This document shows positions 16,818 through 34,388 of a stretch of 64,000 bases of DNA, one piece after another (the first letter of the stretch is position 1; the number at the start of each line of letters is the position of its first letter). The notes below the pieces were generated by a model, which saw only the letters and a program-made list of their open reading frames with translations, was not told the DNA's origin and made no database searches. A program made the position numbers and the translations under genes. Location of the stretch: positions 62,001 to 126,000 of the forward strand of contig JAKLII010000008.1 of assembly GCA_022709695.1 (NCBI GenBank), read 5' to 3'. This DNA comes from Bacteroidota bacterium. GTDB taxonomy: Bacteria > Bacteroidota > Bacteroidia > Bacteroidales > SKPS01.

Positions 16818-18392
16818 TCAGTCGGTTTTGCTGTTGTAAAAAGGATTTTCAGAGATATTCGGATCATCTCCCGGATCCAGGGTATAGTTTGAGCTCTGCT
16901 GCTCATTGGAGGGGATGGTCTGGTCGAGGGTAGTATTTTTCCTTTTGAAAGCGGGTATGGATTCCACTTCCATAAGTCCTTCAAGGGTTCTGAGCTTTAT
17001 CCCGATTTGTCTCAGCCGTTCCTGTCGATGAGCCTGCCTGGGGTCATTTACCGAAAGGGGCCCATCGAGCGGGAGTGCGCCCGGAAAATCGCCGGGATTT
17101 GGAATACGTGTGATCTCCGGATCAGCAAGCGGGGTGATCAGCTGCGGCTCGGTTGAGCTGGAAGTTTTCTCTGCCACAGGACTATCGGAGGTGGTTCCTG
17201 CCAAAGGGGTATCAGTTATGGATGGATCTCCGGCTGCGGGCTTAAAGCCAAAAATCGGATCCTGAACCATTGGCGCAGGACGGTTGATCAGTTGAAGGTT
17301 ATCGACCAGTGGCTCAGCAACAACTCTTTGCGGGGTGTTTGAGGGAAGCGGGTCAATTTTGCCAACCACTACACTCTGTGCGGCAGGCTTGTCAACCATT
17401 CCCGGTAATTCCTGATGGGCATGAAAGCCTGTGGCGATAATGGTCACAGCGATCGCATCGCCGAGCTTATCATCCGTACCGCTTCCCCAGATGATGTCGG
17501 CCGAACTTCCGGCTTCCTTCTGGATGTAATCGGTGATCTCGGTAACCTCATCGAGCCTGACACCTTCATTTCCATAGGCAATGTAAAGAAGCACATTGCT
17601 GGCTCCTGTAATCTGGTTGTCGTTGAGAAGGGGTGAATTCAGGGCATCTTCCACAGCCTCGGTGGCGCGGTTTTCTCCTGATGCAACGCCGGTGCCCATG
17701 ATGGCTACCCCGCTGCTTTTCATTACCGTTTTTACATCTTCGAAGTCAACGTTAATATAGCCAACATGGGTAATGATCTCTGCAATACCGCGGGCTGCAT
17801 CGGTAAGGATATTGTCGGCTTTTGCAAAAGCCTCACCCAACTTCAGGTTCCCGTGCAACTCCCTTAGCTTGTCGTTGTTGATAACCAAAAGCGTATCCAC
17901 ATGATGACGAAGTTCCTGAATGCCGGTTTCAGCAAGCTGCCTTCTTTTACGCCCTTCGAACGAGAATGGAATGGTAACAATCCCAATGGTGAGTATGTCC
18001 ATTTCCCTGGCCAGTTTGGCAATAACAGGAGCTCCTCCCGTACCTGTGCCTCCTCCCATACCCGCAGTGATAAACACCATGCGGGTATCGCGTGCAAGGA
18101 CTTCACGGATGTCTTCAATGTTCTCAATCGCAGCATTCATGCCCACTTCGGGGTTTGAACCTGCACCGTTGCCGGCTGTGAGACTTTGTCCAAGCTGTAT
18201 CTTGACGGGTACCGGGCTCATTTCAATAGCCTGGGCATCCGTATTGCAAATCATAAAGTCAACGCCGTGAATACCCTGTTTGTACATATGGTTCACAGCA
18301 TTGCTCCCACCACCGCCTACGCCTATCACTTTTATGATAGAAGACTGTTCCTTAGGATGATCGAATTTCAGGAGCGTATCAGAATCTGCCAT
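16818..18392 (-). CDS. ftsZ: Cell division protein FtsZ
   Basis: Tubulin-like GTPase that forms the Z-ring; 524 residues, longer than the usual 380-ish because of a long C-terminal linker (about 330-470), normal for Bacteroidota. The GTP-binding signature GGGTGTG is at 113-119 and GGGGSN at 26-31; the T7-loop equivalent NVDFEDVK lies near 216-223. The conserved tail peptide IPAFKRKN and an acidic ENPFYNS end are present, the former being the likely FtsA-binding segment. It is the last gene of the cluster and is followed by terminators. Confidence 0.97.
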   Translation of the reverse strand: MADSDTLLKFDHPKEQSSIIKVIGVGGGGSNAVNHMYKQGIHGVDFMICNTDAQAIEMSPVPVKIQLGQSLTAGNGAGSNPEVGMNAAIENIEDIREVLARDTRMVFITAGMGGGTGTGGAPVIAKLAREMDILTIGIVTIPFSFEGRKRRQLAETGIQELRHHVDTLLVINNDKLRELHGNLKLGEAFAKADNILTDAARGIAEIITHVGYINVDFEDVKTVMKSSGVAIMGTGVASGENRATEAVEDALNSPLLNDNQITGASNVLLYIAYGNEGVRLDEVTEITDYIQKEAGSSADIIWGSGTDDKLGDAIAVTIIATGFHAHQELPGMVDKPAAQSVVVGKIDPLPSNTPQRVVAEPLVDNLQLINRPAPMVQDPIFGFKPAAGDPSITDTPLAGTTSDSPVAEKTSSSTEPQLITPLADPEITRIPNPGDFPGALPLDGPLSVNDPRQAHRQERLRQIGIKLRTLEGLMEVESIPAFKRKNTTLDQTIPSNEQQSSNYTLDPGDDPNISENPFYNSKTD

Positions 18393-19774: not shown

Positions 19775-20554
19775 TTATTTGGTTGTACAGATAACCTGAT
19801 TGCTGTGTTTTAGATTGATACTGCTGTAAACGTCCCAGCCTGTCCGCGACAGACCCTTGCGGTAGAATACGAAGAGCTTATGGAACTTATAGGCCAGGCT
19901 GTCGGCATTGCCGATCAGGATGGTGTGATCGTCGAGGGTGGAGACCAACTCGAGTTCCTGCGATGGATTCACGTAAATTTGTCCTGTCAGCATCCGGCTC
20001 AGGGAGTCCTGCTGCAGGTAAAGTGCAGTCTTGAAAATCTCCTGCAACACCGGTATTCTCCGCAGGGAATCCACCTTCATCCCCTCATATTTCGACAGGG
20101 TGTCTGGAATCCAGCCACTTACCACCGTAACCCGTCGCCCGGCACCCCGATCCGCCGGCATAAGCACCCCTTCCGAGGACAAAAACACGCTTTTACCGGT
20201 GTTATCGAAAATCCTTGCCACCGGTACCCGTTGTATAACTCTGATTTTCAGCATTCCCTGCGGAGTGAAATAAGCTTCTGCCGAAGCAATGTAGGGATGT
20301 TGCATAAGCCTTTTCTCGAGTTTTGAAACGTCAATGGTCGAAGGCTTCTTACCGGTTGCCTTATCCCCCTGCGGGAAAAGAAACTGGTGAATATCAGATT
20401 CAGAAAGGAAGTAATTGCTTCCATCTCTTTCGGTAAGGATAGTCACTCCTTTGCAGGTGATTTCCTGTTCCTGCTTCAGGGTAAGCAGAACCCCGCCCAC
20501 CACCAGAACCGGCAGCACAATCCAGAGCCATTTTATAATCCTTCGGGTTTTCAT
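19775..20554 (-). CDS. ftsQ: Cell division protein FtsQ/DivIB
   Basis: Bitopic division protein of 259 residues: short cytoplasmic end, one membrane helix (about 9-25), then a periplasmic domain. A POTRA-like region with KLEKRLMQHPYIASAEAYF is followed by LKIRVIQRVPVARIF, the usual POTRA-to-beta transition. It links the early ring to FtsL and FtsI. Its start overlaps the murGC stop by 4 bp, as in translationally coupled genes. Sequence conservation is low, so much of the call comes from position between murC and ftsA. Confidence 0.88.
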   Translation of the reverse strand: MKTRRIIKWLWIVLPVLVVGGVLLTLKQEQEITCKGVTILTERDGSNYFLSESDIHQFLFPQGDKATGKKPSTIDVSKLEKRLMQHPYIASAEAYFTPQGMLKIRVIQRVPVARIFDNTGKSVFLSSEGVLMPADRGAGRRVTVVSGWIPDTLSKYEGMKVDSLRRIPVLQEIFKTALYLQQDSLSRMLTGQIYVNPSQELELVSTLDDHTILIGNADSLAYKFHKLFVFYRKGLSRTGWDVYSSINLKHSNQVICTTK

Positions 20555-23058
20555 GGTTCTGTTTGTGTAAGGTACATGTGTTCAATTTCAGGAACCAGGG
20601 TGTCGATATCTCCGGCACCCAGGGTGATCAGAACCTCGGCGGGATGTTCCTTAAGCCATCCGGTAACCTCTCCTTTCGGCAACAGGATCTTTTCAGTTAG
20701 GCTTACTTTCCGGAACAATACCTCAGAAGTGACCCCCTCCATGGGTTCTTCTCTGGCAGGATAGATCGGGAGCAGGATTAGTACGTCAAGTTTGTCGAGA
20801 CTTATGGCAAATTCATCCATGAAATCCCTTGTTCTGGAGAATAAATGTGGCTGGAAGATGCCGGTGATTTTCCGGGTGGGCCATATTTTCCGCACCGCTG
20901 CGATACAGGCATCAAGCTCCCGCGGATGGTGGGCATAATCATCGATGTAGACGATACGGCCGGTATCAATTCTGATATCAAACCGCCGTACTACCCCTTT
21001 GAAGGTAGCCAGACCGGTACGCAGGGCATCTGTACCTACGCCGGCCCATCGGGCGGCGGCAGCAGCGGCCACTGCATTTTCGATATTATGCCGGCCCGGA
21101 ATCCCGAGTTTCACTTCCTGCAGGGTTTCATGGCCCAGCACGAGGTTGAAAACAGCACCGGAACCCACCTCCCTGATGTTTTCGGCCCGGTAAGGAACAT
21201 CCGACGGATCGGCAGAATAGCGGAGTACGGGCCTCCCGAAATCGGCGTTCACCGCTGGTCCTGCCAGTACAGGTTGCGCATCACCTGAAAGACGGCTGAA
21301 GGCAATAAAGGCCTCCTTCAGCTGGTTGTGATCATGATAGATGTCCAGATGATCTGCATCCGTTGAGGTAATGACGGAAAAATCGGGTCTTAGGTGCAGG
21401 AAGGAGCGGTCGAACTCATCAGCTTCCACCACCATGTGGGTACTGTTGGGGGTGTAGATAAAGTTGTTGCTGTAATTTTTTGTGATTCCCCCGACAAATC
21501 CTGTTACGGCAATTCCGCCGGTTTTCAGGAGATGGGTTACCAGCGCGGTTGTTGAGGTCTTTCCGTGGGTTCCGGCAATGGCAATGGTAGTGTGGCTTTT
21601 CGACAACAACCCCAGCAAAGCGGCTCGTTTGATCACAGGAACAGGACCTGCTTCCAGCACCTGACGCTCCTTAAGACTGGCAGGGATGGCCGGGGTAAGA
21701 ACCACCAGGCCTGTGTCGGCCGGGATGCGTGAGGGATCATCCACATAATGAATCACCATACCTTCGGTTTCCAGTGCATGGGTCAGCGGAGTGGGTGTTT
21801 TGTCATAACCGTGCACCTTTTTCCCCTTCAGCAGGAACCACCGTGCAAGTCCGCTCATACCAATACCTCCGGCACCAAGGAAATACACACTTTGCACTTC
21901 ATTGGGATCGGGAAATGCAGCAGTTGCAGCCATGGATGTTCTGCCTCCGGTTTTCAGGATGTGATTTGCGATGGTCCGGTCTGCATCCGGGAAGGCCAGC
22001 CCCCCTGCTTTATCTGCCATGACGGCGAGTTGTGAACCAGCCTTCAGAAGGTCCGTAAGGGTGGTGACAAGTTGCAGTTTCAGCTCATGGTCCTTCAGCA
22101 GCAGGGAAGCTCCCTGGTGCACCATCGCAGCAGCGTTATAGGTCTGATGGTCTTCGGCTGCAAAAGGGAAGGGCACGAGTACCGAGGGGCGGGCTGCCAG
22201 ACAGATCTCTGCAATGGCAAGAGCACCGGCTCTCGAAAGCACCAGATCTGCTGCACCGTATGCATACGCCATTTTCTCAATAAACGGTGTCGCAATCATG
22301 CCTTGTTCAGCGTAGGGTTTGGAAAGCAAAAGGGCTTCCTGATAAAAGGACATGCCCGTTTGCCAGATCACCTGGATCCCCTGTTCTGCCAATGTGGGCA
22401 GGATACCGGCCATTGCCCGGTTAATACTTCTGGCGCCCTGGCTGCCTCCTACCACCAGAAGGACGGGTTTTGCAGGATCCAGGCCGAACTGTCTGCACCC
22501 TTCTACCCTAAGGTGCCGGCTCTCTGCAATCTCCCTCCTTACCGGATTGCCCGTTAGATGCACAGGAACTCCCGGGAAATATTTCTCCATGTCCGGAAAT
22601 GCAGTACACACCATAGCTGCCCGTTTTGACATCCAGCGGTTCACTTTTCCGGGTATTGAGTTCTGTTCCTGGATCAGATAGGGAATCCCCATCACCCGGG
22701 CAGCCATGAGTGCAGGGGTACTGGCAAATCCTCCGACACCGGTCACCACAGTCGGTTTAAAGCTCCTGAAGGCCCTCATGGCCATTAAAACCGACCGCAA
22801 CAGACGAAACGGAAGCAGCAGGTTGCTGAGTGTAAACCTCCCCTTGATGCCGGTGATGGGAAGCGCAAGAATGCGGTACCCGGCAGCCGGCACTTTCTCG
22901 GTTTCCATCTTTCCCCTGGCTCCGACAAACAGGATTTGCTCCCTTCCGATATCCGGGGTTATGGCATTTGCAATGGCGATGGCCGGGAACACATGCCCCC
23001 CGGTTCCGCCGCCGGCAATTACCAGCCTGAAAGGTTTATTTTGAGGTTGCCGTTTCAT
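20551..23058 (-). CDS. murGC: MurG-MurC fusion: GlcNAc transferase / UDP-MurNAc:L-alanine ligase
   Basis: One uninterrupted frame of 835 residues covers two normally separate enzymes. Residues 1-366 are MurG, which adds GlcNAc to lipid I at the membrane: GGGTGGHVFPAIAIA, GGSQGARSIN and SRAGALAIAE. Residues about 376-835 are MurC, the ATP-dependent first ligase of the peptide stem: GAGGIGMSGLA, the P-loop GTHGKTSTT, DADHLDIY, DDYAHHP and FQPHLFSRT. The join LKTGGRTSMAAT has no stop codon. Met376 (ATG 21933) has GGAGG 10 nt upstream, so a separate MurC could also be made. Both parts are full length with all motifs. It overlaps ftsW and ftsQ. Confidence 0.93.
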   Translation of the reverse strand: MKRQPQNKPFRLVIAGGGTGGHVFPAIAIANAITPDIGREQILFVGARGKMETEKVPAAGYRILALPITGIKGRFTLSNLLLPFRLLRSVLMAMRAFRSFKPTVVTGVGGFASTPALMAARVMGIPYLIQEQNSIPGKVNRWMSKRAAMVCTAFPDMEKYFPGVPVHLTGNPVRREIAESRHLRVEGCRQFGLDPAKPVLLVVGGSQGARSINRAMAGILPTLAEQGIQVIWQTGMSFYQEALLLSKPYAEQGMIATPFIEKMAYAYGAADLVLSRAGALAIAEICLAARPSVLVPFPFAAEDHQTYNAAAMVHQGASLLLKDHELKLQLVTTLTDLLKAGSQLAVMADKAGGLAFPDADRTIANHILKTGGRTSMAATAAFPDPNEVQSVYFLGAGGIGMSGLARWFLLKGKKVHGYDKTPTPLTHALETEGMVIHYVDDPSRIPADTGLVVLTPAIPASLKERQVLEAGPVPVIKRAALLGLLSKSHTTIAIAGTHGKTSTTALVTHLLKTGGIAVTGFVGGITKNYSNNFIYTPNSTHMVVEADEFDRSFLHLRPDFSVITSTDADHLDIYHDHNQLKEAFIAFSRLSGDAQPVLAGPAVNADFGRPVLRYSADPSDVPYRAENIREVGSGAVFNLVLGHETLQEVKLGIPGRHNIENAVAAAAAARWAGVGTDALRTGLATFKGVVRRFDIRIDTGRIVYIDDYAHHPRELDACIAAVRKIWPTRKITGIFQPHLFSRTRDFMDEFAISLDKLDVLILLPIYPAREEPMEGVTSEVLFRKVSLTEKILLPKGEVTGWLKEHPAEVLITLGAGDIDTLVPEIEHMYLTQTEP
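21931..21948 (-). promoter_or_regulatory. Internal Shine-Dalgarno-like site and ATG at the MurG/MurC join
   Basis: On the minus strand GGAGG (21948-21944) precedes an in-frame ATG (21933-21931) by 10 nt. It is probably a relic, or still-active start, of a once separate murC that would encode 460 residues, a normal MurC length. Confidence 0.5.
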
Positions 23059-24220
23059 AGGTGGAATTTTCTGTAATGCTGTCTTCTTCCTCCTGATTGG
23101 CCGAACGGCTCACGCTCAGGATAATGCCGATGGAGATTGACGTGAACCAGATGGAGGTTCCGCCCATACTTACCAGTGGAAGCGGTTGCCCGGTCACGGG
23201 CATCAGCCCTGAAGCAACCGCCATATTGATCATCGCCTGGAAAACAAGGTTAAATCCTAGTCCTACCGCCAGCAGGGTGCCAAAGGTTCCGGGGCTTCCC
23301 AGCGCTGCCCTGATGCTGCGGAACAGCAGCGCCAGGTAGAGCAGTATCAGAATAACCCCTCCTGCAAGCCCGTATTCTTCAATGATGATCGCATAGATGA
23401 AATCGGAAAATGGGTTGGGAAGATAATTGCGCTGAATGCTGTTGCCCGGCATCCTGCCCAGAATCCCTCCTGATGCGATCGCGATTTTGGCCTGTTTTGC
23501 CTGGTACACCTCTTCCTGTTCTCCATCGCCACCGAAATTTTTAATCCTTTCCGACCAGGTTCCGACCCTTCCCTGACGGTCTTCCGGCATCATCGACATG
23601 ACCGCAATGAAAACCGCCAGGAAGGCAACTCCGGCGATTCCAAGGACAAGAATATGTTTGATTCTGGCTCTGCCAATGAACAGTAGCACCATACTGGAAA
23701 CGAACAGGATGGCTGCAGTGGAGAAATTCGACGGGAGAATCAGGCCGCAAACCACCAATATGGGTGCCAGCTGTTTGATAAATACATTCAGATTCCCTTC
23801 CTGTATCTCTTCCTGCTTCAGGGTGAGGCTTCGGGCAAGGAATATGGTGAGGGCAAGTTTGGCGAAGTCGGAGGTTTGAAAGGTGAGGTTGATAATAGGG
23901 ATGATCACCCATCTGCGGGCTTCGTTAACCGATGCCCCCCGGAGCAGGGTGTATAACAGCAGCAGGATGGCAGCCAGAAGCAATATACGTGCGAAGCGCG
24001 CATAAAAGGGATAGTTGATCAGGTGTGATACGTACATCAGGAAGAGCCCGAATAAGACGATGCCCAGGTGTTTCAGCAGATAAAATCCCCCGGAGCCTTG
24101 CTGGCTGAAGGCCAGGGTACGGGTGGAACTGTACACCGCCAGCAGCGAGAAGATGGTAAGAAACAATACCAGGATCCAGATGCCCCGGTCACCCCGAAAA
24201 GTAAGTTTTGGCGTTTTCAC
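23036..24220 (-). CDS. ftsW: Septal peptidoglycan glycosyltransferase FtsW
   Basis: SEDS-family polytopic protein of 394 residues with about ten membrane segments; it polymerises lipid II at the septum together with FtsI. Visible are the N-terminal FLTIFSLLAVYSSTR segment, the NFSTAAILF region, and the C-terminal block with MPVTGQPLPLVSMGGTS, a SEDS hallmark. The soluble tail is short and acidic. The last 23 bp overlap murGC. Placement between murD and murG supports FtsW over RodA. Confidence 0.94.
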   Translation of the reverse strand: MKTPKLTFRGDRGIWILVLFLTIFSLLAVYSSTRTLAFSQQGSGGFYLLKHLGIVLFGLFLMYVSHLINYPFYARFARILLLAAILLLLYTLLRGASVNEARRWVIIPIINLTFQTSDFAKLALTIFLARSLTLKQEEIQEGNLNVFIKQLAPILVVCGLILPSNFSTAAILFVSSMVLLFIGRARIKHILVLGIAGVAFLAVFIAVMSMMPEDRQGRVGTWSERIKNFGGDGEQEEVYQAKQAKIAIASGGILGRMPGNSIQRNYLPNPFSDFIYAIIIEEYGLAGGVILILLYLALLFRSIRAALGSPGTFGTLLAVGLGFNLVFQAMINMAVASGLMPVTGQPLPLVSMGGTSIWFTSISIGIILSVSRSANQEEEDSITENSTYETATSK

Positions 24221-32521: not shown

Positions 32522-32542
32522 CCATGCTGAAAATTGAGAACT

Positions 32543-33421
32543 ATGCAGGATACTGCCGGTACCACTCCTTCCCGTGAAGGGGATGGTTTGGTCATTACAC
32601 GTAAAACCATTGACATCCGCAAGGTATTTGGCAGCAAGAACCAGAAACTTGCAGCACTGATGCCCGGCTTTGTCTTCAGGTATATCCGCAGGATCATCCA
32701 TGAGGATGAGTTGAACGATTTCCTGTGGAAAAACAGGGATAAATCCGGGCTGGACTTTGTGGAGGTTGCCCTGAAGAATTTTGAGGTGCAGCTTGAGGTG
32801 CACGGTCTGGAGAACCTGCCTGCGCAGGGCAGGTGTACCGTGGTATCGAATCACCCGCTGGGAGGGCTCGATGGGATTGCTCTGATGCACATCCTTGGGA
32901 ATGTCCGAAAAGATGTGGTAACACCCGCTAACGACCTCCTGATGTTTCTTCCCAACCTCCGTAGCCTCTTTGTGCCCATCAACAAGCACGGCCGCAACAA
33001 CGAGAATATCGCACTCATCAACAGCGCTTTCGGATCCGACAACCTGATGCTGTACTTCCCTGCCGGTCTCTGCTCCAGGAAACAAAAGGGAGGCGTCATC
33101 TGTGATCTGGAGTGGAAATCGACCTTCATCAGCAAGTCAGTACGCAATCAGCGTACGGTCATCCCGGTCCACTTTAAGGGAAATAATTCACAGTTCTTCT
33201 ATAACCTTGCCAGGTTGCGCAAGTGGCTGGGTATCAAGGCTAATATCGAAATGTTCTACCTGGTGAATGAAATGTTCAAACACCGCAAACGAAAATTTGT
33301 CATCACCATCGGCACCCCAATCCCCCCATCGTTTTTCGATCGCTCAAAAAAGCCGGCTGCATGGGCCGATTGGGTGAAAAGGGAGGTGTACCGGCTTGGT
33401 AATGAACCCATTGTCGGATAA
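32543..33421 (+). CDS. Lysophospholipid-type acyltransferase (GlsA/OlsA-like)
   Basis: A 292-residue acyltransferase of the PlsC-like group often labelled putative hemolysin. Block I reads SNHPLGGLDG, so the catalytic His104 and Asp110 are five residues apart rather than the textbook four. YFPAGLCSR matches the glycerol-3-phosphate-binding block. The next gene is an OlsB/GlsB-like N-acyltransferase. In Bacteroides thetaiotaomicron the adjacent pair glsA/glsB makes glycine lipids: GlsB N-acylates, GlsA O-acylates. That is the likely role here, though the head amino acid is not readable. A TACCTTTG promoter and an MraZ-box-like repeat lie upstream. Confidence 0.82.
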   Translation: MQDTAGTTPSREGDGLVITRKTIDIRKVFGSKNQKLAALMPGFVFRYIRRIIHEDELNDFLWKNRDKSGLDFVEVALKNFEVQLEVHGLENLPAQGRCTVVSNHPLGGLDGIALMHILGNVRKDVVTPANDLLMFLPNLRSLFVPINKHGRNNENIALINSAFGSDNLMLYFPAGLCSRKQKGGVICDLEWKSTFISKSVRNQRTVIPVHFKGNNSQFFYNLARLRKWLGIKANIEMFYLVNEMFKHRKRKFVITIGTPIPPSFFDRSKKPAAWADWVKREVYRLGNEPIVG

Positions 33422-33458
33422 TCTAACCTCACATCAACGACCAAAGGAACCCTGCTAT

Positions 33459-34388
33459 ATGTTTCAGGAAATCATACAACCCATATCCCCCGGCCTCATC
33501 GAAGAGGAGCTTTCCAGGGAGGTATTTGTGAAGAATACCAACAACGGGGAAAACCAGATCTACATCATTCACGACCTGAATGCACCCAACACACTAAAGG
33601 AAATCGGGCGACTCAGGGAAATCACCTTCCGGGATGCCGGAGGGGGCACCGGCCTGCCCCTCGACCTTGATGTGTTCGATTCCGGCGAAAAACCTTTCCT
33701 GCAACTCATTGTATGGAATCCTGCTGACCGCGACATTGTAGGGGGATACCGGTTTATCCACGGACGGAATATGCGCCGCGACGCAAACGGATACCCCCTT
33801 TCTCCTACCGCTGAGATCTTCCGCTTTTCCGAAAAGTTTATACGCGATTATCTGCCGGGAACCATCGAACTCGGGCGTTCCTGGGTGCAGCCCAAGTATC
33901 AGCCTTCCAACGATTTCAGAAAAGGGATCTACTCCCTCGACAACCTGTGGGATGGCCTGGGGGGGCTGATTACCGAATATCCTGATGTGGAGTATTTCTT
34001 CGGAAAAATCACCATGTATACCTCCTTTAACGTCAGGGCCCGCGACCTGATCCTTGGGTTTATGAACCATTATTTTGCTGATGACCAGAATCTTGTATGG
34101 CCTTTTGAAGAGTTGAAAGTTTTACCTGAAACCCCTTTCGAACAGCTCAGGCACCATTTTCTCTGCGACAATTACGAGCAGGATTACAAAGCCCTGGTGA
34201 GATATGTGCGCCATTACGGGGAGCAGGTTCCCCCGCTGGTGAATGCCTACATGAATCTCACCTCTACCATGAAAACCTTCGGCACTGCCCTCAATCCCCA
34301 CTTTGGCGATGTGGAGGAGACCGGTATTCTGATCCGCATCCCCGATATCTATCCCGACAAGAAAGAACGCCACCTCAGGCAGGACTGA
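33459..34388 (+). CDS. GNAT-type N-acyltransferase (GlsB/OlsB-like)
   Basis: A 309-residue protein from ATG 33459, which has AAAGGA 10 bp upstream; longer starts overlap the previous gene. The GNAT-like core contains LREITFRDAGGGTG, a VGGYRFIHG strand and ELGRSWVQPKYQ, typical of OlsB-like enzymes that transfer a 3-hydroxyacyl group from acyl carrier protein to an amino acid. With the preceding acyltransferase it would make an ornithine- or glycine-type aminolipid for the membranes. The C-terminal third (about 235-309) extends beyond short OlsB proteins. Confidence 0.82.
   Translation: MFQEIIQPISPGLIEEELSREVFVKNTNNGENQIYIIHDLNAPNTLKEIGRLREITFRDAGGGTGLPLDLDVFDSGEKPFLQLIVWNPADRDIVGGYRFIHGRNMRRDANGYPLSPTAEIFRFSEKFIRDYLPGTIELGRSWVQPKYQPSNDFRKGIYSLDNLWDGLGGLITEYPDVEYFFGKITMYTSFNVRARDLILGFMNHYFADDQNLVWPFEELKVLPETPFEQLRHHFLCDNYEQDYKALVRYVRHYGEQVPPLVNAYMNLTSTMKTFGTALNPHFGDVEETGILIRIPDIYPDKKERHLRQD

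Follow-up and report, generated by a model that had tools for sequence, protein, structure and literature searches.

A murG-murC gene in the dcw cluster

In the window, by which we mean the whole stretch of 64,000 nucleotides analysed here, a single unbroken frame of 835 codons plus a stop encodes MurG followed by MurC (Table 1). It opens with an ATG at position 23058, closes with a stop at 20551 and contains no internal stop. The sequence-only reading had placed a whole MurG and a whole MurC in this frame without stating the strand; we confirm both enzymes and assign the frame to the minus strand. Here, and likewise in the congener genome G001, two enzymes share one uninterrupted frame, which is what defines a fusion.

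The fused gene belongs to an ordinary Bacteroidota dcw cluster, also on the minus strand, with the order mraW/rsmH, an FtsL-like gene, a penicillin-binding protein gene (ftsI position), a murE-type ligase gene, mraY, murD, an ftsW-like gene, murG-murC, a gene in the ftsQ position, ftsA, and ftsZ. No promoter- or terminator-like site was found in the murG-murC junction. Two other features of the region were recorded. FtsZ (16818-18392, minus strand) has 524 residues, and its model covers only residues 15 to 329, leaving a long C-terminal tail. Near the dcw cluster, glsA and glsB (glycine lipid synthesis; 32534-34388, plus strand) are two overlapping separate genes, each of which also matches the bifunctional OlsF model.

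Table 1. Positions of the murG-murC gene, its parts and its immediate neighbours in the window
Feature	Position	Strand	Evidence or remark
murG-murC fused gene	20551..23058	-	Unbroken frame; both equivalog models above cut-off; open likewise in congener G001
MurG part, residues 1-367	21958..23058	-	TIGR01133, 297 bits; aligned with 3s2u, 7d1i, 1f0k
Linker, residues 368-387	21898..21957	-	Same length as the congener's, 0/20 identical
MurC part, residues 388-835 plus stop	20551..21897	-	TIGR01082, 347 bits; aligned with 2f00, 6cau, others
In-frame ATG of Met376, possible internal start	21931..21933	-	Leu in congener
GGAGG within the codons for Gly371-Gly372	21944..21948	-	Absent from congener
ftsW-like gene, upstream	23036..24220	-	Family match, below equivalog cut-off; 23-nt overlap with the fusion
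Downstream gene, ftsQ position	19775..20554	-	No family match, named by position; 4-nt overlap with the fusion

Each half of the protein is recognized over nearly its full profile. Residues 7 to 367 match the MurG model TIGR01133 with 297.3 bits against a cut-off of 250.25 (profile 3-353 of 353), and residues 391 to 821 match the MurC model TIGR01082 with 347.1 bits against a cut-off of 335.1 (profile 2-444 of 449). The Pfam domains follow in the corresponding order, two GT28 domains and then three Mur ligase domains. The 25 best NCBIfam matches include models for MurC/Ddl and MurE/MurF fusions but none for a MurG/MurC fusion.

The presence of all catalytic motifs of both enzymes, claimed from the sequence alone, is borne out by alignment with known structures and by residue invariance, scored in an alignment that adds 13 relatives and reads through the stop separating the two genes. 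The MurG part has the GGTGGH, EQN and GGSQGA motifs and the Glu and Gln of the C-domain, and H22, E131, N133, G204-S206, E284, and Q305 are invariant among the relatives. The MurC part has the P-loop, the acidic and His residues of the centre, RRF, and DDYAHHP; K500, E545-E548, H570, H657, N658, R692, D706-D707, and H711 are invariant. The genome holds no second full-length murG and no second full-length murC; its remaining matches are weaker Mur ligases, and two of these fall where murD and murE lie in the window. A further weak Mur-ligase match (G000:C19:154499-154972, where G000 is the window's own genome) lies in an 832-residue open frame whose size fits a MurF/alanine racemase fusion.

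Comparison with the congener

The congener G001 is the sole other genome of the family compared. Its frame is equally unbroken (844 amino acids) and shares 58% identity with the window's protein over residues 1 to 830, with 54% identity in MurG and 63% in MurC. In both domains, differences at third codon positions are about twice as frequent as those at first and second positions, an excess such as would be expected under purifying selection. The linker is of another kind: none of its 20 residues is identical between the congeners, while its length is equal, with neither gap nor stop, and on this comparison it behaves as an unconstrained spacer.

These data bear on whether the fusion is real and on how old it is. 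In many relatives the genes are in phase and a lone stop parts them, so a single wrong base from sequencing or assembly could mimic a fusion; the error would have removed the stop or the frame change from what are really two ordinary genes. The independently obtained congener genome is open too, however, with an unrelated linker, and because it has this same unbroken frame we consider such an error very unlikely. Likewise, because the congener frame is fused and the two linkers share 0 of 20 residues, the fusion would be older than the divergence of the genus, barring two independent origins within it. The earlier proposal that the stop was lost recently does not agree with this comparison.

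Distribution and origins in the order

The search of related genomes proposed with the sequence-only reading returned the same two-domain layout in relatives, including the closest one, G001, rather than separate genes in all of them. Uninterrupted MurG-MurC was identified in 5 of the 393 genomes sampled in the order (G000, G001, G051, G196, and G192) by requiring a match that spans both enzymes without a stop at an E threshold of 1e-160, which very divergent fusions may escape. In f91, the family of G192, 9 of 39 genomes are fused, namely G192 and eight more. A phylum-wide sample of 395 genomes yielded the window's own fusion and none in the 394 others. Both the description of murG and murC as usually separate neighbours, true of most relatives, and that of the fusion as an unusual arrangement are therefore upheld. 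No relative was found in viral contigs, and a plasmid collection gave only low-identity matches in two pieces. Loci of Veillonella and other Bacillota that seemed to span both genes were discarded after a frame check, which placed murG and murC in separate frames.

In many relatives murG and murC share a frame, and often a single stop codon is all that parts the open frames. Among 60 relatives plus the window, 11 of 45 adjacent murG-murC pairs are in phase, three of the 11 being fused; this is not above the one third expected by chance. Because many relatives keep both genes in frame and one stop apart, loss of the stop in an in-phase pair would be a sufficient route to fusion. As a separate observation, four genomes of family f170 (G703, G764, G740, and G691) have open frames of 1150 to 1240 residues over murG-TGA-murC, sizes which suggest that murG or murC is fused there to a further domain.

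To follow the fused state, a tree was built on the concatenated MurG and MurC domains (103 rows in the full version). It requires 8 changes under LG+G4, every one of them forced by starred branches, and 10 under a mixture model, 6 of them forced, in counts that do not separate gains from losses. In a 27-row test, a single clade of fused proteins is rejected (p-AU 1e-55), while joining the window's genus with G051 is not (p-AU 0.245). The linkers of the fused lineages have neither sequence nor length in common, and because they differ in both, several gains of the fusion are likely. At least three origins would be a cautious reading of these trees and linkers. In G806 (L169, 2133-2212) the junction of the fused gene carries a 7-nt tandem repeat of about 11 copies, and its linker reads as LHSSPFT-type repeats. 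Since the length of the 7-nt unit is not divisible by 3, gaining or losing copies would toggle between fused and out-of-frame genes, making the repeat a possible slippage switch.

Free MurC, tethering and known fusions

The sequence-only reading also pointed to a GGAGG before Met376 as a sign that a free MurC might be made. The GGAGG does lie exactly 10 nt before the ATG, and the bases upstream of Met376 do resemble those of starts; the weight placed on the GGAGG itself is the weak point. Bacteroidetes mRNAs are without Shine-Dalgarno sequences, which the ribosomes of the group do not recognise (PMC6847099, PMC9976891). With such sequences largely ignored by Bacteroidia ribosomes, the GGAGG is weak evidence for a free MurC, and the congener does not conserve it. 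In the window, 5-base Shine-Dalgarno-like sequences precede 11% of ATG starts versus 4% of internal ATGs. The upstream context of Met376 is A-rich, and its score, which no more than 1.7% of the window's internal ATGs reach, is typical of weaker starts in a simple position model, a small one trained on 47 unverified starts of the window.

The frame could then be read both ways, giving the full MurG-MurC protein as well as a free MurC from Met376. Besides this context, such dual use would be in keeping with the congener, which has Leu at 376 and no GGAGG but an ATG at 382, close to the start point of separate murC genes. Yet neither the ATG nor the GGAGG keeps its position, the class does not use Shine-Dalgarno sequences, and a chance ATG in a linker of 20 codons is not rare. 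Furthermore, in 8 of 13 fused genes the 24 codons leading up to the MurC core contain no ATG, and in the fused relatives G051 and G806 the final 32 are free of ATG, GTG, and TTG alike. A free MurC is possible in the organism of the window and improbable in fused lineages that have no internal start; overall, we regard production of both forms from the frame as unlikely.

We instead read the gene as a genuine MurG-MurC fusion, most likely bifunctional, that probably arose by stop loss before the genus split, and give this reading a probability of roughly 0.85. The stop between two adjacent in-phase dcw genes would have been lost, so that the old end of murG and the leader of murC became the linker. 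The two active sites would act independently on a tether that is presumably flexible. MurG is a peripheral membrane enzyme that converts lipid I to lipid II, whereas MurC adds L-Ala to UDP-MurNAc, and four steps lie between them (MurD, MurE, MurF, and MraY); that the fusion joins two non-consecutive steps, as previously pointed out, is thus supported. Because the product of MurC goes to MurD and the substrate of MurG comes from MraY, one would not expect direct channelling from one site to the other. At the inner face of the membrane, MurG would hold MurC in place at a 1:1 ratio, and this tethering may aid a membrane-near cluster of Mur enzymes.

Whether the genuine fusion brings any gain is a further matter. 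Loss of a stop in an in-phase pair may simply be tolerated and drift, with tethering of no consequence, and we give this neutral account a little less than an even chance. It agrees with linkers that are unlike in sequence and length among the fused lineages, with the scattered occurrence of the fusion, fused and separate genes being interleaved in one family, and with in-phase pairs at about the chance rate. It fits less well with a fusion that has several origins and was kept through deep divergence in the genus, although persistence may reflect only the loss of start signals, after which reversal would be difficult. A neutral origin and a benefit from tethering are about equally likely; the linker shows no visible constraint, and most relatives are unfused. 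The stronger proposal, that the fusion was repeatedly selected in Bacteroidales since anchoring MurC on MurG at the membrane improves the Mur enzyme cluster, is one we hold to be doubtful; if true, these natural fusions would speak for a complex scaffolded by MurG with MurC as a member.

Fusions of murG and murC have already been reported, with the actinomycete C. gilvus given in Fig. 3 of Laddomada et al. 2016 (PMC4929429), the relevant text of which notes that the two steps are not sequential, a remark repeated in the corresponding text of PMC6420597. By that published description, the C. gilvus fusion resembles that of the window in its enzyme pair, its place in the dcw cluster, where the two are neighbours, and its non-consecutive steps, and differs in belonging to another phylum than the Bacteroidota case (PMC4929429). 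The window's gene is a new occurrence of an already reported fusion type and a modest curiosity, not a new kind of system. We found no description of Bacteroidales MurG-MurC fusions, or of repeated origins, in the open-access literature. The wider interest of the fusion lies in the open question of whether the cytoplasmic Mur enzymes form one complex scaffolded by MurG. MurG has been proposed as the scaffold of a Mur complex in the pertinent section of PMC6420597, and the tether of the window fits that proposal as stated there. The joining of MurG to a ligase that acts several steps earlier is consistent with such a complex and is unexplained by simple product hand-over. Repeated origins within one order, some without an internal start codon, provide ready-made tethered pairs for biochemistry.

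Other fusions offer partial parallels. MurE-MurF of Bordetella pertussis likewise joins dcw neighbours but, unlike MurG and MurC, performs consecutive steps; in the portion of PMC6420597 that deals with it, the protein is described as an elongated, flexible molecule whose active sites lie far apart, and as binding MurG. MurC is likewise joined to another pathway enzyme in MurB/C of Verrucomicrobium spinosum (PMC4803751), the gene for which complements both E. coli mutants, and in MurC/Ddl of Chlamydia. The partner differs in these two proteins and MurC is N-terminal, whereas in the fusion of the window MurC is C-terminal.
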